A stretch of 64,000 nt of DNA from Geoglobus acetivorans (GCF_039641995.1 NZ_CP087714.1:558001-622000); one strand, 5' to 3'; counted from the stretch's first letter, positions 10,083 through 20,290 are shown. Program-made: numbers and translations. Notes: generated from the letters alone by a model not told the origin.

Positions 10083-10358
10083 TTATCTGTATTTCGTTAT
10101 TTTTCCATCTATAAAATCTTCTTCGGAAAGCCTTCTGTATATCTGGACGAGTTCAACACCCTTTTCTGTGGGAAAATAGAGTGTTTTTCCATTAACCTGC
10201 TTTTCTGAGATTAATCCCTTATCTTTTAGATATTTCAGATACTTCTCGACGAGATGAAAGTTCAGGTTGGCATTGTAAACTATCCTGGTTTTGTTTGCAC
10301 CACCATTCATTAACGTGCAGATTATGTCCACCACTATGTCGAATCTCGTACGGCGCAT
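10083..10358 (-). CDS. Small winged-helix transcriptional regulator (HTH_45-like)
   Basis: A 91-residue protein that is one winged-helix domain: DIVVDIICTLMNGGANKTRI, then VYNANLNFHLVEKYLKYLKD (recognition region), then the wing KQVNGKTLYFPTEKGVEL. This is the pattern of the archaeal HTH_45 regulators. The ATG at 10358 is preferred over an in-frame GTG nine bases upstream because of the GGTGA site five bases before it. A paralogue with the same IVYxxNLNF core lies at 10505-10741. It has its own promoter with an inverted repeat over the TATA region. It may regulate the adjacent exported-protein island (inference from position only). Confidence 0.8.
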   Translation of the reverse strand: MRRTRFDIVVDIICTLMNGGANKTRIVYNANLNFHLVEKYLKYLKDKGLISEKQVNGKTLYFPTEKGVELVQIYRRLSEEDFIDGKITKYR

Positions 10359-10381
10359 TGTATTCACCTTATATTATTTTA

Positions 10382-10504: not shown

Positions 10505-10741
10505 TCAGAACATTTCCTTGTATTTTCTTATGAATTTCAAACCTTTATCGGTGGTTTTGTAATATGTCTTTCCTTCTTTCCGATATTTCACTATGAGTTC
10601 CAATTCCGAAAGGCGGTCGATGTATCTTGTTGCTATCTTGAAGTTGAGGTTTGAACCGTAGACTATCCTGGTCTTTAAAACTTCATCCTGCGCAATTTCG
10701 AGTATGCTGACCATTATTTCAAGTTCACTTCTTTTTTTCAT
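10505..10741 (-). CDS. Small winged-helix transcriptional regulator (HTH_45-like), paralogue
   Basis: A 78-residue winged-helix protein: ELEIMVSILEIAQDEVLKTR, IVYGSNLNFKIATRYIDRLS, then the wing VKYRKEGKTYYKTTDKGLKF. It is a paralogue of the gene at 10083-10358 (shared KTRIVYxxNLNF core). The ATG at 10741 has GGTGA five bases before it; an ATG at 10747 and a GTG further up are possible. It overlaps the end of the DUF5305-type gene by 17 nt and so is cotranscribed with a component of the surface-protein island. That coupling argues that it controls that island. Confidence 0.78.
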   Translation of the reverse strand: MKKRSELEIMVSILEIAQDEVLKTRIVYGSNLNFKIATRYIDRLSELELIVKYRKEGKTYYKTTDKGLKFIRKYKEMF

Positions 10742-11738
10742 TTCCATCACCCTTTCTGTAAATGTATGCATTCCCGTTCGACATCACGGCGAGGTACTCA
10801 TCAGTTTCTATAATCGGGGATTCAAGCTCATAGGCTATTTTTCCAACGTCTTCAAGACTTCTGAGAAAAACTGTGTTTCCTGCAGTCGGAGATATCTTTC
10901 TCGCCTGTACTATCAGGGAATCGTACTTCTTTCTGAACTTCCTGTCAAGTCTGCCATTGTTTATCTTCGAGTTTATTCCTCCCATTATGAGCTCTTTGTT
11001 CAGGGTCAGTATTGCTGATGCGCTTGTAACGAGAACAGCCACAAGTACTGTCTTGATGGTGGAAGGCTTTGCATTGCCGAATGGGGTGGAGATGTAGTTC
11101 TGAACGACGACATCCCTTTCAATATTCTCGCTTTTGCTGAACTCCAGATTAGCAAACTTCAGTGTCTTTCCCACCGTCATCGAGGAAATATGCCTGTACT
11201 CGCTCCTGATTTTCTCCCCGTTGATGTTGCCCATTATGTTTACTGTAGTTTCGATTTCGACAATCGGAGTGTTGTAGTTGAGTCCTGTCTCCTTTTGAAT
11301 TCTGTCCCAGAGCTGTTTGACGTAGAAGATGTCTACAGAAATTTTTCCTGACTGCTTGCCATCAATCACGCCTTCATAGCTGTAAGGCAGTTCTTTCCTC
11401 CATTCAGGGAGAACCTTGCTTTCTGAAGGTTTCAGGTACATTCTGATTGAATAATCTCCCGTAACACCTGGAGATGCCTTAATTTCGTATTCGAGCCAGA
11501 ATCTCTTAACGAGATTTGCGAAGAATGTATCCCCTCCTCTGATGGTATCTTTATCTCCGAAGATTATGGTTGGGGAGGTTATCTCAGCAACAGGAACGAA
11601 TCTGACTTCAACCCCGAATGACCCCACTCTCTTTTTCATTTTCTCCTCGTCAGGTATGTCCCAGTAGGATATCAGGAAGTAGGCAGATAATACTGCAAGA
11701 ATCAGGAATATTTCCGTGACAATCTTTACGCGTTTCAT
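10725..11738 (-). CDS. DUF5305-type membrane protein
   Basis: A 337-residue protein with an N-terminal membrane helix (about residues 5-24, VTEIFLILAVLSAYFLISYW), a large outside beta-rich domain (about 30-220) and a second membrane helix (about 228-248, TVLVAVLVTSASAILTL). A basic cytoplasmic tail of about 90 residues follows. The layout matches the archaeal DUF5305 family, which has no known function. The ATG at 11738 is chosen because GGGGGAGGTGAGC stands directly before it; an ATG 18 nt upstream is possible. It lies next to the signal peptidase and DUF1102 genes; a role in assembly, export or anchoring of those proteins is inferred only from that context. Confidence 0.75.
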   Translation of the reverse strand: MKRVKIVTEIFLILAVLSAYFLISYWDIPDEEKMKKRVGSFGVEVRFVPVAEITSPTIIFGDKDTIRGGDTFFANLVKRFWLEYEIKASPGVTGDYSIRMYLKPSESKVLPEWRKELPYSYEGVIDGKQSGKISVDIFYVKQLWDRIQKETGLNYNTPIVEIETTVNIMGNINGEKIRSEYRHISSMTVGKTLKFANLEFSKSENIERDVVVQNYISTPFGNAKPSTIKTVLVAVLVTSASAILTLNKELIMGGINSKINNGRLDRKFRKKYDSLIVQARKISPTAGNTVFLRSLEDVGKIAYELESPIIETDEYLAVMSNGNAYIYRKGDGNEKKK

Positions 11739-11786: not shown

Positions 11787-11805
11787 AATAAACTGAATTA
11801 CTGAA
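11787..11805 (-). promoter_or_regulatory. Copy of the island promoter element TTCAGTAATT
   Basis: On the minus strand the element reads TTCAGTAATTCAGTTTATT; the core TTCAGTAATT ends 58 nt before the ATG at 11738. Related cores stand at nearly the same distance before two other exported-protein genes (17158-17176 and 18967-18985), and a fourth copy is at 20351-20364. Confidence 0.45.
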
Positions 11806-11817
11806 CAAAATTCAGTT

Positions 11818-12882
11818 TCACTTCAACTGGAAGTTTCTCATTTTTCGTTTGAAGAGTCCTGGCTGCATCCTTATCCTGTAGTACTTTTTCTCTCCACTGA
11901 ACATGTGGATAATCGTCAGAACAGCGAGTATTTCGAGGTCAATCATGAGTACGGGGATATATTCGTTTATTGAGAACAGTCTGTAGGCTATCTCAGGGGG
12001 CAGCAATGGAAAATACTTTGCAACAAGTATTTTTTCCTCATACAGTCTTGTCTCTATTGGGGCCTTTATGGTTACTGTGAGGGTTTTTGACTCTCCTGGC
12101 CACAGAACAAAATATTCATCTATGGCGGAATTTCCACCACCCTTTACAGCATAGATCATTGGATAGTGCAGGTTGTTGGAGACCGTCAGATTCCTCTGGA
12201 ACACCTGTCCGGGAAGCACCCATTCCTCCCTCAAACCACCTGCTGAGGTTACACCGTACTGTATCTTCTCATTTCCAATCCATATCGTTCCAGAGAATGT
12301 TGTGAGGAGCAGAAGGCTGAATGTTAGGATTAGAAAAACCTGATCTGAATGGAGTCTGAGTGATTTCCTCGATCTTCTCTTTTTTCTGCGCTTCTTGTCA
12401 CCCCCCAGCATGATTTCGGCCAAGCCTGCCAGGAAGAACACCGCCACCATCAGCGTTTTGTGGTTCCATGCGAATTCGGAAACTTCGCTTACGTAATTCC
12501 CAACCTGCGGAATCTTAACAGGTCTGTCGAGGAATGTTATCACCTTACCTGCTATAAACTCTCTTTTTACGAGATCCTTTCCGCTCTGCTGATCGGTGGC
12601 GATATTGTTGTCTCCTTTGGTTATATATCCTCCCGAAATTTCTGAAAAAATTCTGTGACAGACCCATTCTCCATTTGAGTAAAATACGATTATGTCGCCT
12701 TTTTCAAGGCTGAAAAATACGGGAGTCATGAAAATCAGGTCCCCCTTGCTCAGTGTCGGCTCCATGCTGTTTGAGGTTATATACGACACGAAAACCGGTC
12801 TGTTCATGAGAGCCCCGAGAACTGTAGAAAATGAGAAAACCAGGATTGAAATGCTTATTATGAGCGCAAGCCCTCTCCTCAT
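11818..12882 (-). CDS. Enlarged SipW/Sec11-like signal peptidase I
   Basis: A 354-residue membrane signal peptidase of family S26B. After an N-terminal membrane helix (residues 5-25) come the catalytic Ser39 in SNSMEPT, the His76 of CHRI (archaeal/ER type uses Ser-His in place of Ser-Lys) and the KGDNN motif with Asp91. Unlike ordinary archaeal signal peptidases of 150-220 residues it goes on with two more membrane helices (about 141-158 and 183-200), an outside domain (about 205-300) and a last helix (about 315-335). In bacteria a dedicated SipW peptidase processes TasA and camelysin; here the gene is the last of an operon of exported DUF1102-type proteins, overlapping the Cys-rich gene by four bases. 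It probably trims them. Confidence 0.88.
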   Translation of the reverse strand: MRRGLALIISISILVFSFSTVLGALMNRPVFVSYITSNSMEPTLSKGDLIFMTPVFFSLEKGDIIVFYSNGEWVCHRIFSEISGGYITKGDNNIATDQQSGKDLVKREFIAGKVITFLDRPVKIPQVGNYVSEVSEFAWNHKTLMVAVFFLAGLAEIMLGGDKKRRKKRRSRKSLRLHSDQVFLILTFSLLLLTTFSGTIWIGNEKIQYGVTSAGGLREEWVLPGQVFQRNLTVSNNLHYPMIYAVKGGGNSAIDEYFVLWPGESKTLTVTIKAPIETRLYEEKILVAKYFPLLPPEIAYRLFSINEYIPVLMIDLEILAVLTIIHMFSGEKKYYRIRMQPGLFKRKMRNFQLK

Positions 12883-13913
12883 GAATGACGCCCTCGGCCA
12901 TGCTTTTTGCTCCTATCGCTCCCATTACTGTCTCCGCTGCTTGTGTCACAGCAGCTATTTGAATCACAGCCTTCATCACTGCAGTTGCTGGAATCACTGC
13001 AACAGTCGTCACCGCTGCATCCATTGTCGCTACTGCATCCCTCCTCACAGCATCCGTCTGAATCACAGCAGCATTTCTCATCTGAGTAAACATCGATACA
13101 GATGGGGTTGCTCTTTACATCGTATCCAACGACTTCTGCACCATCATTCAGACAGTATGTTCCCGGAGATGTGAACTCCTGTTTGCACGCTGGGTTTTGC
13201 TTGGTCGTAACGTTTACGTCGAGCCACTCCACATCCCCGTTTTCCAGGTGTACATACCACATGATGGTGGAAGAGCCGGAATTGCCCATGCCATTGCCCA
13301 GTATTTCATATCTGCCAGATGATGGATTGATTTCAAGAATCTCGAGTTCTGCAGGTATTACATCTTTTATAACGAAGTCATCAGAATATCCTGGATTTTT
13401 CACCAGGATTCTGAAGGTCCAGTATTCCTTTTCTCCAACCTTTACGGACTCCTTTCCACTCATAAGGTGCTTTTCGATCTCGATTCTCGGACTGGAGATG
13501 TTGATTGTGCATGCATAAAGCTCTGCGGATCCATTCGCCCAGTCTGCAGATACTCTTGCTGTTATCGAATAAAACCCGGGCATCCCATAAAATGTTGCTG
13601 TAACTTCCACACTCCCGTTTGGCGGGAGGAAAAACTCACTTTCGTGATCGATACTTAACGAATCAGTATACACATAAAAAGTGGCCTCCTCTCCAAGCCT
13701 GTTTGTAATATTCAGGAGTGTGAACGTATCGCCAGATATCAGATAAAGGATTTTATTTTCGGGACACAGGCATGAAATCAGGGATTCATTCAGCTCAGTA
13801 ACATTTGCAGAAAAGTTTCTTTCAGCACCGAATTCCTTAAAATGGCTGGATGACCCGACAAGAAGCCCGAAACTGAGAGTCAGGAGTATCAGCAGGTTAA
13901 TGTATGTTTTCAT
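12879..13913 (-). CDS. Exported protein with DUF1102-like N terminus and Cys/Asp/Ser-rich tail
   Basis: A 344-residue exported protein. The signal segment (TYINLLILLTLSFGLLVGSS) runs directly into SSHFKEFGAERNFS, the same post-cleavage signature as in the neighbouring DUF1102 proteins, though the rest of that domain is not recognisable. A DUF11/CARDB-like beta domain covers about residues 155-260. The last 70 residues are extreme: 13 cysteines in about 42 residues within an Asp/Ser/Gly background (for example CCCDSDGCCEEGC), then a basic end (RSKKHGRGRHS). Possible roles are metal binding or disulfide cross-linking on the surface; neither is shown. The ATG at 13913 has GGGTG five to six bases upstream. 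No homologue of the tail is recognised. Confidence 0.82.
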   Translation of the reverse strand: MKTYINLLILLTLSFGLLVGSSSHFKEFGAERNFSANVTELNESLISCLCPENKILYLISGDTFTLLNITNRLGEEATFYVYTDSLSIDHESEFFLPPNGSVEVTATFYGMPGFYSITARVSADWANGSAELYACTINISSPRIEIEKHLMSGKESVKVGEKEYWTFRILVKNPGYSDDFVIKDVIPAELEILEINPSSGRYEILGNGMGNSGSSTIMWYVHLENGDVEWLDVNVTTKQNPACKQEFTSPGTYCLNDGAEVVGYDVKSNPICIDVYSDEKCCCDSDGCCEEGCSSDNGCSGDDCCSDSSNCSDEGCDSNSCCDTSSGDSNGSDRSKKHGRGRHS

Positions 13914-13957
13914 CTTATTCACCCTTCAAAAAAATATGGAAATGCATTTTGATCGCC

Positions 13958-15526
13958 TCATGACACCAGAATGTCTATGGTATCTATCACGATGTCGTCT
14001 GCAAGCAGTTCTATTGTTATCGTTTGAGGAGCATGCGGCTCCGGTGGAGTTATCTGAATTGAAAACGTAACCTGGCTGCCCCACGCCACATTCGTGTACT
14101 TGTCAGGAGTCCATGTAACAATCCATCCCGGTGGAGCGCTGGCCCTCAGGGTCAGGTTCCCGATTGGCTGTTCCGCAACCTCTTTTATCTTGTTTTCAAT
14201 GATTGTTGGTAAAGCGCTCAAATCTCCCTGCAGCTCGGCATAGGCGCCGTCGGTCATGTCTGCCATGTACATGAAGTTTGTTCTTGCATCATCGCTGAAC
14301 TCGTCGTCTCTGCCTGCGTAGATTGATATTATCGTCAATCCGAAGTCATTAGCAGAGTTGACGGTGTTCACGTAGTCAACATCATCTGAAGTGTTCATGA
14401 GCCAGTCGTCCCCGGGGTCTCCACCATAGTTGTTTTCGAAAACACTCAGGCCGTTTGGCATGTTGTGGGGCGGAGCGTCTCCGAGTATGACCAGTATTTT
14501 CCTTGCGTCATCTCTCCAGCTCATCTCACTCATCGCCTTGTGGATCGCATAAGCGTACGGCTCAGGCTCGTCGAGCCCATTTTTGATTTCAAGGTCGTTA
14601 ATCGCACCTGCTGCAGCGTTTATGTCGTAGGTCAGATCTGAATCCATTCTCCACGGATAGTCTCCGGGAGCTCCGTAATTTTTACCGTATGGCCATCCAT
14701 AGCCGTAGTTTTCGGAGTAGAGGTACAGTCTTGGATAATCTGCGAGGCTCGCAACACCGAATCGTGAATCCTGAATCAGAAGTCGTATGTCACTCATCAG
14801 GTCTATCGCACTGACCTTTGCCTGATTCAGCTCTTCCAGCATGCTGCCCGTTACGTCGAACATGAACACTATGTCGCCCTTGGGAGCTCTCTCCGGAAGT
14901 TCAACCCTCCATTCAAAGTTTTGCGGTACCGGTGTCGGAGTGGGTGTTGGAGTCTCTTCCGGTGTTGGTGATGGGGACGGCGTTGGGGTTGGCACAACAC
15001 CGTTGCACGGCTCTGCATGAATTCTGAGTCTTCCATCTATACTTCCAAGCTCTTTAGACTCTATAAGGAGACCGATCTCCTTCCTCTCTCCGGGAAGTAT
15101 CTGCAAAACGGTTTTCTGGGATGCGTTTAGATAGTCCTCAAGATATGTTTTGATCTCTTCAGGTTCTGAGGTTACGGTTACGTTTATGCAGACACCGTCC
15201 CACAGGTTGTTTGAAATTTCAAAGACCCTGTCGAATGCGTATTTGCTATCCGGACTGAGGCCCTCTCCCTTTCCTTCATCCCACTCTGGGTTGTTTGTGC
15301 TGAAGTCTATGTACAGCTTTCCATCCTGCCCGATATATGCATAGGGCTGGAGGGGTTTGAGGTCTATCAGTTCCTGATCGTCAGATACAACAGCGATGCT
15401 GTAGTTTCTCGTTGCAGTATATTCTGTGAATGTTGCCGTTATACCAATAACGTATGCTGATGCTATGAGGAGCATTACCAGCAGTCCTGTAAATGTCCAA
15501 ATCCTTTTTGGATTAGATTGTGGCAT
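13958..15526 (-). CDS. Exported DUF1102-VWA fusion protein (putative adhesin)
   Basis: A 522-residue exported protein. A signal helix (about residues 10-30) is followed by a DUF1102-type domain (about 32-174: ATFTEYTATRNYSI, DDQELIDLKPLQPYAYI). A Pro/Thr linker spans 179-201. A von Willebrand A domain covers about 217-425 with a MIDAS-like D224-V-T-G-S228. A C-terminal beta domain (about 447-522) ends in strands without a membrane anchor. VWA domains with MIDAS bind ligands through a metal ion and sit at the tips of many pili. As the only fusion in an array of DUF1102 proteins it could be the tip or adhesive subunit (inference). The start overlaps the upstream DUF1102 gene by 14 nt. Confidence 0.85.
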   Translation of the reverse strand: MPQSNPKRIWTFTGLLVMLLIASAYVIGITATFTEYTATRNYSIAVVSDDQELIDLKPLQPYAYIGQDGKLYIDFSTNNPEWDEGKGEGLSPDSKYAFDRVFEISNNLWDGVCINVTVTSEPEEIKTYLEDYLNASQKTVLQILPGERKEIGLLIESKELGSIDGRLRIHAEPCNGVVPTPTPSPSPTPEETPTPTPTPVPQNFEWRVELPERAPKGDIVFMFDVTGSMLEELNQAKVSAIDLMSDIRLLIQDSRFGVASLADYPRLYLYSENYGYGWPYGKNYGAPGDYPWRMDSDLTYDINAAAGAINDLEIKNGLDEPEPYAYAIHKAMSEMSWRDDARKILVILGDAPPHNMPNGLSVFENNYGGDPGDDWLMNTSDDVDYVNTVNSANDFGLTIISIYAGRDDEFSDDARTNFMYMADMTDGAYAELQGDLSALPTIIENKIKEVAEQPIGNLTLRASAPPGWIVTWTPDKYTNVAWGSQVTFSIQITPPEPHAPQTITIELLADDIVIDTIDILVS

Positions 15527-16013
15527 TGAGGGACACCCCCACCATCTGTCCGTTCCTCATATCGAATACAAAACCGACACAGGTTTCTTCCATCCATCCA
15601 AGCTGGAATATCAGGTGTTGCGTGGCAGTCTCGGGAGAATACGCTGTTGCAGATGTCGGCGCGTACATCATCACGCTGGGAGATGATGAATTCACGACGA
15701 ATGTAACTGTCTGGTTCTCCCACAGTGTGTTCTTCACGTAGAACATGCAATCAAATGCGTACAGCGTGTCGGGACTCAAACCGGCTCCGTATCCCGGATA
15801 CTTGGGATGGGACGGTGAGATATCTATGTACAGCTTTCCATCCTGCCCGATGTATGCATAGGGCTGGTTGGGGACAAGTCTGAGCAGTTCCTGGTCATCC
15901 GCAACAACCTGAACACGAAAACCCCTGTTTGCAGTGTAGTCCTTGAAATGGCTGCTGACCCCAGTTATCAATAAAAATGAAATTATTAGGACCGCTGTTA
16001 TCGCTGCTTTCAT
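15513..16013 (-). CDS. Exported DUF1102 protein (TasA/camelysin-like), copy 3
   Basis: A 166-residue secreted protein: signal helix at residues 3-19, then the family signature SSHFKDYTANRGFRVQVVAD, DDQELLRLVPNQPYAYIGQD, GAGLSPDTLYAFDCMFYVKN. Two cysteines (C89, C145) match the pairs in its two neighbours and may form a disulfide. No C-terminal membrane anchor. The ATG at 16013 is used because GAGGTG lies six bases upstream; a GTG nine bases earlier is also in frame. It lies between another DUF1102 gene (gap of 23 nt) and the VWA gene (overlap of 14 nt), so it is a middle gene of the operon. Proposed role: subunit of an extracellular fibre (inference). Confidence 0.82.
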   Translation of the reverse strand: MKAAITAVLIISFLLITGVSSHFKDYTANRGFRVQVVADDQELLRLVPNQPYAYIGQDGKLYIDISPSHPKYPGYGAGLSPDTLYAFDCMFYVKNTLWENQTVTFVVNSSSPSVMMYAPTSATAYSPETATQHLIFQLGWMEETCVGFVFDMRNGQMVGVSLNATI

Positions 16014-16036
16014 TGAAAACACCTCAAAAAATTAAG

Positions 16037-16579
16037 TTATTCCTGGTAAGGGTATGCATGCATAGTCATTTCTCCGGTGTAATCGCCCGTCTTTATGCCG
16101 GTGGTATCTATGACGAACCCTATGCACGCCTTATCTCCATTCTCGATCACAACGTGGAGGTTGGTTGTTGCGTTGGCAGGATCGGTGTTGCCCTCGTCAC
16201 TTTTATCCGAGTATATCTTCACGATTCCCTGTAGTTCGCTGGACAGATCGATGTCCATCCCTATTGTCATATTTTCTTCCCAGAGATCGTTTGAGACGCA
16301 GAAGACATCGTCGAACACGTATTTCGAGTCAGGGCTTACACCCTTTCCGTATCCCGGGTAATTCTCGTTCTCTGCGTCAAACCTGACTATGAGTTCTCCA
16401 TTGTCACTGTCAATGAATGCGTATGGCTGGTTCGGTGTCAGATCGATAAGTTCCTGGTCATCTGTTACGATAGCTATTGTGAAATTCCTTTCCGCATGGT
16501 ACATTCTGAAGTCGGCGCTAAGCCCTGAAACAAGTGCTATGGCGATGGAAAACATCACCAGGTATATTATTTTGTTCAT
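16037..16579 (-). CDS. Exported DUF1102 protein (TasA/camelysin-like), copy 2
   Basis: A 180-residue secreted protein: signal helix about residues 4-20, then SADFRMYHAERNFTIAIVTD, DDQELIDLTPNQPYAFI, GKGVSPDSKYVFDDVFCVSN and LWEENMTI. Cysteines C94 and C152 match the pairs in the flanking copies. Several N-x-S/T sites are present (for instance NMT, NAT), so surface glycosylation is possible. A GGGGTG site precedes the ATG. It is separated from the upstream copy by 14 nt and from the downstream copy by 23 nt, indicating one operon. Differences in the loop between the two Cys residues suggest the copies have diverged in exposed regions. Confidence 0.83.
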   Translation of the reverse strand: MNKIIYLVMFSIAIALVSGLSADFRMYHAERNFTIAIVTDDQELIDLTPNQPYAFIDSDNGELIVRFDAENENYPGYGKGVSPDSKYVFDDVFCVSNDLWEENMTIGMDIDLSSELQGIVKIYSDKSDEGNTDPANATTNLHVVIENGDKACIGFVIDTTGIKTGDYTGEMTMHAYPYQE

Positions 16580-16593
16580 AGGTCAGCACCCCA

Positions 16594-17109
16594 TTACTCG
16601 GCAGGTTCAGCATGTATTGTTAGCTGTCCCTCTATGCTATCTCCGGGTGATTTCCCGTCTCCATCAAAGCTCATTCCAACGCAGACTTCCTCTCCCTGTG
16701 GAACGTTGAAGTTGATAGATGTGCTTGCTTCGTCTGGGTCATTCGTGTACAGCTTGACCAGATCGTTGTTGGATGTGATCGTCACGTTTATCGTTACGTT
16801 CTCCTCCCACAGGTGGTTTGAAACGTTGAACATGCAGTCAAACGAGTACTTTGCATCCGGGCTAATTCCAAGACCACCGCCGTCAGGATAGTTGTCGTTG
16901 TTTTCGCTTATGTCGATGTACAGTTTTCCGTCATCTCCTATGTATGCATACGGCTGCCCGGGATCCAGATCAATTAATTCCTGATCGTCAGCCACGACCG
17001 CAACATGCACGCTTCTGTCGGCGTCATAGCTGGCAAAATCTGCCCCAATCCCTAAGGCAAACACAAGTGCTCCAATCAGGAGCACGACTCCCACAAGCCT
17101 TTCGAACAT
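16594..17109 (-). CDS. Exported DUF1102 protein (TasA/camelysin-like), copy 1
   Basis: The 171-residue first gene of the surface-fibre operon. A signal helix (about residues 5-22) precedes ADFASYDADRSVHVAVVAD, then DDQELIDLDPGQPYAYIGDD, GLGISPDAKYSFDCMFNVSN and HLWEENVTINV. The mature part should be a small beta sandwich; C92 and C143 may pair. Bacterial TasA/camelysin and archaeal bundling pilins begin in a comparable way just after SipW cleavage, where the new N terminus acts as donor strand. The start has GAGGTG nine to ten bases upstream, and an island promoter element about 50-70 nt upstream. Confidence 0.85.
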   Translation of the reverse strand: MFERLVGVVLLIGALVFALGIGADFASYDADRSVHVAVVADDQELIDLDPGQPYAYIGDDGKLYIDISENNDNYPDGGGLGISPDAKYSFDCMFNVSNHLWEENVTINVTITSNNDLVKLYTNDPDEASTSINFNVPQGEEVCVGMSFDGDGKSPGDSIEGQLTIHAEPAE

Positions 17110-17157
17110 TTTGCTTCACCTCGACCATTTTGTTAGAATTAATTGTGATGAACAATT

Positions 17158-17176
17158 ACTTAGTTAATTCCTGAAT
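17158..17176 (-). promoter_or_regulatory. Island promoter element before the DUF1102 operon
   Basis: On the minus strand this is ATTCAGGAATTAACTAAGT. It matches the element before the exported protein at 17797-18921 in 17 of 19 positions and stands at the same distance from the start codon (48 nt here, 45 nt there). Conserved place and sequence in otherwise unlike gaps argue for a functional core promoter or activator site. Confidence 0.5.
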
Positions 17177-17236: not shown

Positions 17237-17680
17237 TTAGAAAACCTTTCTGACCTTCATTGTCTGAAGTAAAGAGCTCGTTACCAGTGCTATGGATATG
17301 ACAATTGCAAGAGTATCCATAACCAGCAGGCTTCCTGCAGCAGATATGCTGCCGAGAACCAGGTAATACTTGCTCCAGCTTATATCTCCACCCTCGACAA
17401 ATTCTATATACATCTTCACATCGTTGAGGTATCTCTCTTCGAGATGCAGCATGTTGCTCGATCTGTCGTAATATACTATTCTGGCTCTTTCGAGCTTGGG
17501 TATGTGGGTTTGCTTCAGGCTGATATAGACGCTTTTTCTGTTTCTCTTTTGAGGATCGCCCTCTTTTTCGCAGATGTATGTGATGACGTCCTCAAGGGTT
17601 GCCCGACCGTTGTTGTGCAGGAGATACCTCAGGAGGAGTTTCCTCCTTTCATTGGATATGATCGAAGTAAGACTGTTCAT
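17237..17680 (-). CDS. Membrane-tethered winged-helix regulator (DUF7344-like)
   Basis: A 147-residue protein with an N-terminal winged helix (about residues 3-85: ISNERRKLLLRYLLHNN, RKSVYISLKQTHIPKLERAR, IVYYDRSSNMLHLEERYLND) and two C-terminal membrane helices (about 103-137). The QTHIPKL-x-xARIVxYD pattern is that of the haloarchaeal DUF7344 family. The ATG at 17680 is preferred (GGTGGGG just upstream); a GTG nine bases earlier is in frame. Position between two exported-protein transcription units and two strong inverted repeats in its own promoter make it the best candidate for the local regulator (inference). Membrane anchoring would allow it to sense surface or secretion state. Confidence 0.78.
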   Translation of the reverse strand: MNSLTSIISNERRKLLLRYLLHNNGRATLEDVITYICEKEGDPQKRNRKSVYISLKQTHIPKLERARIVYYDRSSNMLHLEERYLNDVKMYIEFVEGGDISWSKYYLVLGSISAAGSLLVMDTLAIVISIALVTSSLLQTMKVRKVF

Positions 17681-17700
17681 TGTCCCCACCAGAATAGGAT

Positions 17701-17726
17701 ATAGTATTTATCATATTTAATACTAT
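17701..17726. promoter_or_regulatory. Inverted repeat ATAGTATT-N10-AATACTAT
   Basis: Perfect 8-bp arms in a 26-bp element 21-46 nt before the ATG of the membrane-tethered regulator. It covers the expected TATA/start zone (TTTATCATATTTAATAC), so binding there would control this gene. Confidence 0.5.
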
Positions 17727-17732
17727 TTTATT

Positions 17733-17755
17733 GTTACTTAACTATGTTCAGTAAC
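17733..17755. promoter_or_regulatory. 23-bp near-palindrome (arms GTTACT / AGTAAC)
   Basis: The whole 23 bp is close to its own reverse complement; only the two pairs around the AAC/GTT steps deviate (GTTACTTAAC facing GTTCAGTAAC). The right half contains TTCAGTAA, the core found before the exported-protein genes at 11787, 20351 and, slightly changed, at 17158 and 18967. It is a strong operator candidate for the regulator that starts at 17680. Confidence 0.5.
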
Positions 17756-17796
17756 AAAAAATTAACAAAAATAAAAAATTTTAATGGCTTATAATA

Positions 17797-18921
17797 TCAT
17801 GTCGGCGGCAAAACCTGAACCGGGTCGCTAACGGGGTCCATTGGCTTGCAAGGCACTATGACTGCCTGGTATTCGAGCAGTATGTATCCTGTATACTCGG
17901 TTGCTGGAGCACCGTTGGGCAGGTGCAGGCTGAAGTCTATCTTGGTGGTGTTGCACGGCCACAGCAGGTTGCTGAACCTGGTCCACTCCCATGATGGCAG
18001 CATCAGGTCTTCATCAAGGAATCTCATGTCGAAAACGTTTTCAAACTTCTTCGGTGGGTCTGTGCTGCTTGTTGCATCGGATGCGTATGCGGATACTGCT
18101 ATCGGGGTGTTACCAATGTTTCTGATTGTTGGCCTGTCTGATGTGTTCATGTCATAGTCACCGCTGACCTGCGCTCTGTAACCCACTTTCACGTTCGTGA
18201 AGTGGACTGAGTCGAAGTCCGTCTCGTAGGCAAGCATTGGTCTAACCTCGAAGTAGTTGGTGAACTTCTCTGAAGTAGCACCGTTGTTATCTGTTGCCCA
18301 TGCCTTGACCATGTACCATCCGTAAGCCTGGTGGTAGTCAATGAAAAGCTCTGCAGCATATATTCTCGCTTCATTCTGGTGGAGCTCCTCCCACAGCTCG
18401 TCTGCCTCTGCAGAAGTGAAGTAACCGGCAGCAACACCAAGCTGCAGCAAATCTTCAACAGAATATCCATTGAACACCGGAGCACTCAGATCCGGGATTC
18501 CAAGCTGGTCTCTAACGAGTTCGATCTCTTTTGCATGGACCTGGTATTTGAAGCTGCCATCTCCATATCCACATGTCGGGTGGTACACATCCACATACAC
18601 GTTTCCATTCGATATGTCTTCTATGCCGTTGGGGTCAGATACTATTACGAACGAATAGAATGTGGCGCCGTCTCCCGGAACGATGTCTCCCTGGGTGCCA
18701 AGCCTTACTGGATCGGCATCAGTGAGTATAAACTCATCATCTGTGTTTGGATCAACCCAGAGTTCCCACTTTGCCTTAATCCATGGCGGGGATCCAAGGG
18801 GGTCTGTCTCCACTGTAACGCTTATCCTCTCCTGGCTGGAATATCCATCTATGGCGTTTGCTGTTCCAATGCCAATCAGGCTCACTGCCAGCACTGCAAG
18901 CAACAAAATACTTTTTTTCAT
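17797..18921 (-). CDS. Secreted protein of unknown function
   Basis: A 374-residue protein with a clear Sec signal peptide (KKSILLLAVLAVSLIGIGTANA-type; basic residues 2-3, hydrophobic 4-18, AXA-like end at about 23). The mature part is rich in beta-type sequence and aromatic residues (PPWIKAKWELWVDPNTDDEF, WELW, HQAYGWYMVKAWATDN), with a helical insertion around residues 150-185. No membrane anchor or sorting tail is seen. It is not recognised as any family. It has its own promoter carrying the island element and an AGGAGGTG site, and lies between the regulator and another exported protein, so it probably belongs to the same surface programme. Confidence 0.78.
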   Translation of the reverse strand: MKKSILLLAVLAVSLIGIGTANAIDGYSSQERISVTVETDPLGSPPWIKAKWELWVDPNTDDEFILTDADPVRLGTQGDIVPGDGATFYSFVIVSDPNGIEDISNGNVYVDVYHPTCGYGDGSFKYQVHAKEIELVRDQLGIPDLSAPVFNGYSVEDLLQLGVAAGYFTSAEADELWEELHQNEARIYAAELFIDYHQAYGWYMVKAWATDNNGATSEKFTNYFEVRPMLAYETDFDSVHFTNVKVGYRAQVSGDYDMNTSDRPTIRNIGNTPIAVSAYASDATSSTDPPKKFENVFDMRFLDEDLMLPSWEWTRFSNLLWPCNTTKIDFSLHLPNGAPATEYTGYILLEYQAVIVPCKPMDPVSDPVQVLPPT

Positions 18922-19072: not shown

Positions 19073-20290
19073 TCATCGTTTCCTTCTCCCTGACAGCGAT
19101 TTGATTGCCAAAATCACGATCCCTGTGACCAGAATTGCTGAGTAGATCTCAAATCCCGGGATTTTGCTATTGTTACTGTTTTCTCTGCTGCTGTTTGATG
19201 ATTCCTGCTTTTTAATTGCTTCGCTTGTTACCTCAACAGCAATATCGCTCAGCTTTGCTATTTTACCACCGTACGCCAGCACCGGTTTGAGGGTATAGTT
19301 GCCCGGGTCGCCCATCTTCAGGTATGCGGTCAGGATCCCTGTCTGACCCTTTTCGAGCCACAGTGGATCGCTTTCTGAGAGATCTACGAACTCCGAGCCT
19401 CTATATATCTCGATCCTCATCCGTACCTCTGTATCTATTTGCCCCGTGTTTTTCACTCCCAGTTCAACTTTCGACACTTTTCCTGGCTCAATTATTTTTT
19501 CGACAGAGATGTTGAGGATCTCCATTCTTGCCGTAAGTGTTCCTTTTTCAAAAACATTGAACTTGAGCTCTTCTGTAAGAATTTCTTTCCCATCCATCAG
19601 CAATCTAAGTCTGCCAGTGTATGTTCCTTCATCTGCCCTCGAAGTGTCCCAGCTAATTTTCGCAGCTTTTATTTCCTGGGGTTTTATTTTCACAGCCGTC
19701 TGGTTCCTCCATACCTCAACGCCATCTGGATTGAAGACTGTTATCTCGACAGTAGGGTCAGCAACGACGTTTCCGTTATTGAGTAGGTCCACCTCCATTC
19801 TCGCAGGGATTCCGACTTCAGTATCATCTATTGTGAAGAGCATCAGCTTTACTGATTTTTTCTGTTCTCCCGTGACTGTGAATACCAGATTGAGGGGAGC
19901 CTTCATTCCAACACCCACTTTACCGCCTTCAGAAGAGGAGACAAAGAACACGGGGATTTTGTAATTTCCGTTGGCAGCATCTTCGGGTATTTTCAATCTC
20001 ACAATTATCTCGAAATAACCATTGGCTGGGACCTCAATCTCATCAATCACGCCCCCCGTAGTATTCAGAACCTCCACCCATTCTGAGAACTCACCCGTTT
20101 CTATTTTGAACTGGGCAGGGCTATCCTGTGTGTTGTATATTCTCGCCCTGCCCTCCACAACCTGCCCCCTCAGAAGGTCTTTAAAGTCGATGAATGACGG
20201 AGAGATTCCGATACTTATCGCTTCTACACCATAAACAAGTGCCAGCACCAGTACTGCTGAAAACAAGATTTTTACGTATGTTTTTCCCAT
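19073..20290 (-). CDS. Exported multi-domain beta protein with PGF-CTERM-like anchor
   Basis: A 405-residue exported protein: signal helix (about residues 6-24), then NEW1/CARDB-like beta-sandwich domains (about 25-140, 150-250 and 255-355) and a Ser/Asn-rich linker. The C terminus has the motif IPGFE, a hydrophobic helix (about 378-397) and the basic end SGRRKR. That tripartite C terminus is the PGF-CTERM type, which archaeosortase A cuts before lipid attachment. No archaeosortase gene is in the window. Conserved domain spacing suggests a surface scaffold or accessory protein of the island. GGGGTGA precedes the ATG. Confidence 0.78.
   Translation of the reverse strand: MGKTYVKILFSAVLVLALVYGVEAISIGISPSFIDFKDLLRGQVVEGRARIYNTQDSPAQFKIETGEFSEWVEVLNTTGGVIDEIEVPANGYFEIIVRLKIPEDAANGNYKIPVFFVSSSEGGKVGVGMKAPLNLVFTVTGEQKKSVKLMLFTIDDTEVGIPARMEVDLLNNGNVVADPTVEITVFNPDGVEVWRNQTAVKIKPQEIKAAKISWDTSRADEGTYTGRLRLLMDGKEILTEELKFNVFEKGTLTARMEILNISVEKIIEPGKVSKVELGVKNTGQIDTEVRMRIEIYRGSEFVDLSESDPLWLEKGQTGILTAYLKMGDPGNYTLKPVLAYGGKIAKLSDIAVEVTSEAIKKQESSNSSRENSNNSKIPGFEIYSAILVTGIVILAIKSLSGRRKR

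Follow-up and report, generated by a model that had tools for sequence, protein, structure and literature searches.

The operon at positions 11,818-17,109 of the window, by which is meant the whole 64,000-nucleotide stretch of the 1.9-Mb genome of the archaeon Geoglobus acetivorans analysed here, raises the question of whether exported proteins of the family DUF1102, encoded together with a signal peptidase, form a surface fibre of the TasA class and, if so, how such a fibre would be processed and started. The original prediction had read the locus as a surface-fibre operon, and this is largely supported by the match of the predicted subunit fold to AbpA and FimA and by a gene set and homology shared with the haloarchaeal Tat-fimbriae (tafi). 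We consider it very probable, arguing from fold, homology and gene set, that the operon makes a Sec-exported surface fibre of the TasA/tafi class, and we regard the cassette as a Sec-dependent variant of the archaeal TasA-like fibres whose gene content is closest to tafi.

All six of the reported open reading frames (ORFs) are present at 11,818-17,109 on the minus strand. Three encode DUF1102 proteins which are predicted pilin subunits: P0001 (16594..17109, 171 aa; Pfam DUF1102, E 4.6e-44), P0002 (16037..16579, 180 aa; E 2.8e-43) and P0003 (15513..16022, 169 aa, with a GTG start; E 2.1e-34). The others are the DUF1102-VWA fusion P0004 (13958..15526, 522 aa; E 5.6e-31), the TafC-like secreted protein P0005 with its Cys-rich tail (12879..13922; hhalign to TafC and DUF1102) and P0006 (11818..12882, 354 aa), a Sec11/SipW-type signal peptidase with a predicted extracellular Ig-like domain. 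The DUF1102 scores of P0001-P0004 lie between 108 and 150 bits against a cut-off of 22.2. Pfam matches and ORFs thus bear out the three DUF1102 proteins, the VWA fusion and the Cys-rich protein of the original prediction, and the 354-residue SipW/Sec11-like peptidase stands equally, as it matches the archaeal signal peptidase I model TIGR02228 at 3e-19, above the cut-off. The spacing had been misjudged: instead of gaps and overlaps of 14-44 nt, the distances from P0001 to P0006 are +14, +14, -14, +35 and -4 nt, the last being the overlap of the P0006 start with the P0005 stop. Each DUF1102 protein contains exactly two cysteines (P0001 C92/C143, P0002 C94/C152, P0003 C92/C148, P0004 C113/C174), placed alike in P0001-P0003, and judging from the sequences a disulphide is possible in these proteins.

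The operon is real, but the cassette had been drawn too small, as it extends to the genes for the DUF5305 and DUF7344 proteins and to further flanking genes. The order on the minus strand is P0010, P0009, P0008, P0001 to P0006, P0007 and two HTH_45 genes. Downstream, 61 nt beyond P0006, lies the gene for the DUF5305 membrane protein P0007 (10725..11756; Pfam 8.7e-13), and beyond it are those for two winged-helix proteins, both probable regulators (10505..10771, Pfam HTH_45 5.9e-20; 10083..10367, 6.3e-24), again on the minus strand. Upstream on the same strand are encoded P0008, a DUF7344 winged-helix regulator with a C-terminal hydrophobic segment (17237..17689; Pfam 2.5e-18), P0009, a secreted protein of no known family recognised by its orthologs and a shared motif (17797..18921), and P0010, a membrane-anchored surface protein with Ig-like repeats, weak CARDB/NEW3 matches and a hydrophobic C-terminal segment (19073..20290). 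Orthologs of P0009 adjoin the cassette in L024, L028, L026 and L031, with P0010 beside P0009 in each. Inverted repeats at 11791-11817, upstream of the DUF5305 gene, and at 17724-17764, upstream of the DUF7344 gene, have a common core, GTTCAGTAA/TTACTGAAC, which is a possible operator.

The shared motif, AATTAACTAAGTA, occurs on the minus strand upstream of the DUF1102 operon (17157..17169) and upstream of P0009 (18966..18978). In its 12-bp form, ATTAACTAAGTA, it is found at these two sites and also in L024, L026, L028 and L031, with exactly two copies per genome, both within the locus, in four carriers of a P0009-bearing cassette; a fifth carrier, G209, has one mismatch in each of its two sites. 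The distance from a site to the start of the gene that follows, P0009 or the first DUF1102 gene, is 43-66 nt in all five carriers, and ATTAACTAAGTA is absent from the six other genomes searched, none of which is known to carry a P0009-bearing cassette. Given this pairing of sites, P0009 is probably part of the system and co-regulated with the operon through the motif, which could be either an operator or a promoter element.

The exported proteins had been said to share the signature (S/A)xFxxY/FxAxR-N/S behind the signal helix. It is complete in four of the five, while P0003 has R-G in place of R-N/S. Of the 178 window ORFs with 80 aa or more, no other has the full signature, and relaxing it yields a single unrelated match; across 14 related loci, matches to this relaxed form are almost all on DUF1102 proteins and P0005 orthologs, and in an alignment of 23 DUF1102 proteins Y28, A30 and R32 are kept at a level of at least 90%. 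P0001-P0005 have no twin arginine within their first 25 residues, and export through Sec is therefore to be expected. Mature P0001 is predicted to begin at about D24, and cleavage after the small residue of the signature, as predicted, would place the Phe at P2'. The TasA site also has Phe at P2', and is cut by SipW but poorly by the E. coli signal peptidase (PMC10269814). Processing of the SipW/TasA kind, as originally proposed, is in keeping with this rule, since the peptidase is a dedicated one of ER type and the predicted site has an aromatic residue at P2'.

The AlphaFold2 (AF2) model of mature P0001 is all-beta with a mean pLDDT of 86. The best PDB matches in Foldseek are FimA variants (E about 1e-4) and AbpA of Pyrobaculum calidifontis (7UEG; E 1.6e-4, prob 1.00, TM 0.50/0.42), followed by the Tafi pilus of Natrinema sp. 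J7-2 (9P0A) at E 0.019; the TM-scores are modest, and Ig-like sandwiches resemble many folds. AF2 together with the matches to 7UEG, FimA and 9P0A nevertheless describes a beta-sandwich subunit of the pilin type, and the outcome on which the original prediction would have failed, a fold unlike the TasA-like pilins, did not occur. The expected likeness to known pilins holds for AbpA, but the 50 best-scoring structures listed do not include TasA. AbpA, which forms a donor-strand fibre (PMC9715654, PMC9674648), resembles DUF1102 in its beta-sandwich pilin fold and in coming from a hyperthermophile, whereas no sequence match was detected: run against the sequences of the PDB, neither the DUF1102 nor the TafC-like profile found anything significant. 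In the P0001 monomer model the predicted donor segment, 5-8 residues at the start of the mature chain, comes out disordered. A viral structure library gave no convincing match.

The closest likeness in gene content was found to tafi. These fimbriae of haloarchaea, described by Galeva et al. (iScience 2025, 28:111793), are reportedly Tat-dependent. A haloarchaeal tafi cluster (L050) contains TafA, TafC, TafE and TafF according to curated models, together with DUF5305, DUF7344 and a signal peptidase; the cassette has the corresponding set, with DUF7344, TafC- and TafF-like proteins, DUF5305 and a peptidase, and the extra domain of the peptidase and the N-terminal motif F-x2-[YV]-x-A-x-R are common to both. 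When mature parts were compared by hhalign, for which controls gave prob 11 or less except for P0005 against P0010 at 61, DUF1102 matched TafF at prob 97.6 and E 3e-12; haloarchaeal TafF-like proteins also exceed the DUF1102 cut-off, and P0002 weakly matches the NCBIfam TafF model (2.6e-5). An apparent profile likeness of DUF1102 to TafA/TafE (prob 82) was dropped as evidence because it fell to prob 11 (E 0.003) once signal peptides had been removed. None of the five exported proteins reaches the NCBIfam cut-offs for TafA, TafC, TafE or TafF (14-27 bits against 155-420). The cassette differs from tafi in that these five proteins have no twin-arginine signal, that its main subunits are DUF1102 proteins only weakly like TafA/TafE, and that it adds a VWA subunit and Cys-rich segments.

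P0004 and P0005 are set apart from the three plain DUF1102 proteins by additional domains. In P0004 the DUF1102 domain is followed by a Pro/Thr linker, a VWA domain (Pfam Integrin_beta VWA, E 8.1e-7) and a NEW3-like domain (NPCBM_assoc, E 2.7e-6), the VWA part being weakly like the VWA domains of integrin beta; its domain layout makes it a candidate tip or adhesin subunit, and among the cassettes compared a full-length relative was found only in that of the closest relative, L024. P0005 combines a DUF1102-like N-terminal domain with a Cys-rich tail (19 Cys), and with mature parts its N-terminal portion matches DUF1102 (prob 92, E 8e-7) and the protein matches TafC (prob 82, E 1e-5); its ortholog in a second cassette of the same genome (L022) matches the NCBIfam TafC model at E 2.6e-6. 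The Cys-rich stretch of the TafC-like protein moves between species, being a C-terminal tail in the window, a stretch of 42 residues from residue 50 in L026 (5015-5929) and a region near residue 60 in L033 (8541-9482); such stretches possibly serve in metal binding or cross-linking.

The profile of P0006 matches human SEC11C (7p2q) at 1.1e-12. Its Ser39, His76, Asp91 and Asp97 are invariant in all nine rows of the alignment and correspond in SEC11 to the positions SM, HR and GDNN...D. Among 53 listed Archaeoglobales genomes, comprising same-family and same-order genomes, full-length P0006 and DUF1102 co-occur perfectly, with both in 23 and neither in 30, a pattern with a chance of 1.6e-15 were the genomes independent, which they are not. 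The retained Ser-His-Asp residues, the SEC11 match and this co-occurrence together describe a dedicated ER-type peptidase encoded with its subunits. Two other peptidase matches in the genome of the window are shorter and lie elsewhere, and searches of PHROGs gave only S24-like repressor matches, for the peptidase domain. That the locus has a peptidase of its own is upheld. The enlargement is not peculiar to it: full-length relatives of P0006 also occur in haloarchaea, and the larger size is therefore typical of the class and its usual form in these archaea.

The additional part of P0006, at about residues 202-290, is modelled by AF2 with a pLDDT of about 90 and matches MSP and PapD-like folds in Foldseek at E about 0.02, a value that says little about kinship where Ig-like sandwiches are concerned. 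P0006 has four hydrophobic segments with basic loops, from which, by the positive-inside rule, we infer that the catalytic and the extra domain both face outside. The extra part is thus predicted to be an outside-facing Ig domain of MSP/PapD-like type, and is perhaps an assembly chaperone. A tentative extension, which we think distinctly less probable than not, is that P0006 is enzyme and assembly chaperone at once: while the signal helix is being cut, its Ig domain would hold the subunit or donate a strand to it, and a single membrane protein would thereby couple cleavage to strand exchange. In G034, a close relative, the second cassette (L023, 5706-6723) has its peptidase gene divided between two overlapping frames, which hold the catalytic part and the Ig domain respectively, through either a frameshift or a sequencing error.

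In the mechanism we propose, the DUF1102 proteins would be exported with an N-terminal signal helix, as their sequences suggest, and P0006, given the enzyme class indicated by homology, would cleave at the predicted site behind the small residue two positions ahead of the conserved Phe. The freed N-terminal strand would then fill the groove in the beta-sandwich of the next subunit to give a head-to-tail fibre, as is suggested by the fold and by the relatives; P0005 and P0004 may take minor parts as initiator, adaptor or tip subunits, P0007 (DUF5305) may act as a membrane assembly factor, and the DUF7344 and HTH_45 proteins are putative regulators, the two sites perhaps placing P0009 under the same control. 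What computation gives here is the homology, the fold and the gene set, and from these we infer processing, strand exchange and fibres. In Bacillus, the TasA/camelysin-SipW operon likewise includes an ER-type signal peptidase of its own, the cleavage site has Phe at P2', and a minor-subunit gene overlaps that of the peptidase; in contrast to P0006, Bacillus SipW is about 190 aa long (profile length), with no room for an extra domain. Among the best structural matches of the P0001 model are FimA subunits of chaperone-usher pili, several in self-complemented form; there is, however, no usher and no outer membrane here, and nothing in the cassette is PapD-like except the additional domain predicted in P0006.

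It could be argued that the DUF1102 proteins stay monomeric or sit in a lattice at the surface, associated with an S-layer, and that the peptidase just processes an unusual signal sequence. The papers searched contain no report of a DUF1102 fibre, and P0010 and the neighbouring proteins resemble ordinary surface proteins, as such an arrangement would have it; on the other side, fold and homology agree with those of known fibre subunits and with the gene set of tafi, and camelysin in Bacillus cereus has the same layout, a single dedicated peptidase for several paralogous subunits (PMC10151520), so that we judge this unlikely. An origin in type IV pili or archaella is highly improbable, as the cassette contains no prepilin peptidase, ATPase or platform protein, its peptidase is of the Sec11 class and its subunits, according to the P0001 model, are all-beta after the signal helix, even if Archaeoglobales genomes do have type IV pilus genes elsewhere (PMC4600277).

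Curled filaments which hold iron oxides have been described in G. ahangari (PMC4600277), and these unexplained structures in the same genus might invite the suggestion that the cassette encodes them. That can scarcely be credited: the genome of G. ahangari (G043), which shares the genus of the window, has no match to DUF1102 and none to full-length P0006, and the cassette, being absent there, does not explain its filaments and is ruled out as their source. The donor-strand fibre of the TasA/tafi class is retained as the preferred reading.

Among heat-loving archaea, many Archaeoglobaceae and one genome of a sister family have kept the cassette. The second, divergent cassette of the same genome, at about 974-979 kb (L022, 4348-8673), encodes DUF7344, two DUF1102 proteins, the peptidase-Ig fusion, a TafC-like protein and DUF5305, and has no P0009, P0010 or VWA protein. 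In the peptidase tree the window copy groups weakly with the P0009-bearing cassettes and L029 (85/88, drawn open) and the L022 copy with L025 and L027 (87/87, without full support); it is likely, though short of proof, that two types of cassette go back a long way. The relevant passages of an archaeal 'dark matter' paper do not mention this locus. Another carrier of the cassette, G075, we take to be Archaeoglobus veneficus. The filaments of A. veneficus reported in a review are cytochrome wires (PMC12954529), and sheared filaments of this species have already been imaged by cryo-EM, so that existing data could test the fibre claim.

The uncharacterised family DUF1102 gains a likely role from these results, and donor-strand fibres with a dedicated signal peptidase are extended to the Archaeoglobales, with export by Sec rather than Tat. 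TasA, AbpA and tafi, hitherto studied apart, are linked through gene set, fold and sequence, and a 12-bp motif newly connects an upstream secreted protein to the DUF1102 operon. The peptidase-Ig fusion offers a testable answer to how archaeal fibres of this class start; if the chaperone reading is true, P0006 would do the job which falls to TapA beside SipW in Bacillus, or to PapD in Gram-negatives.
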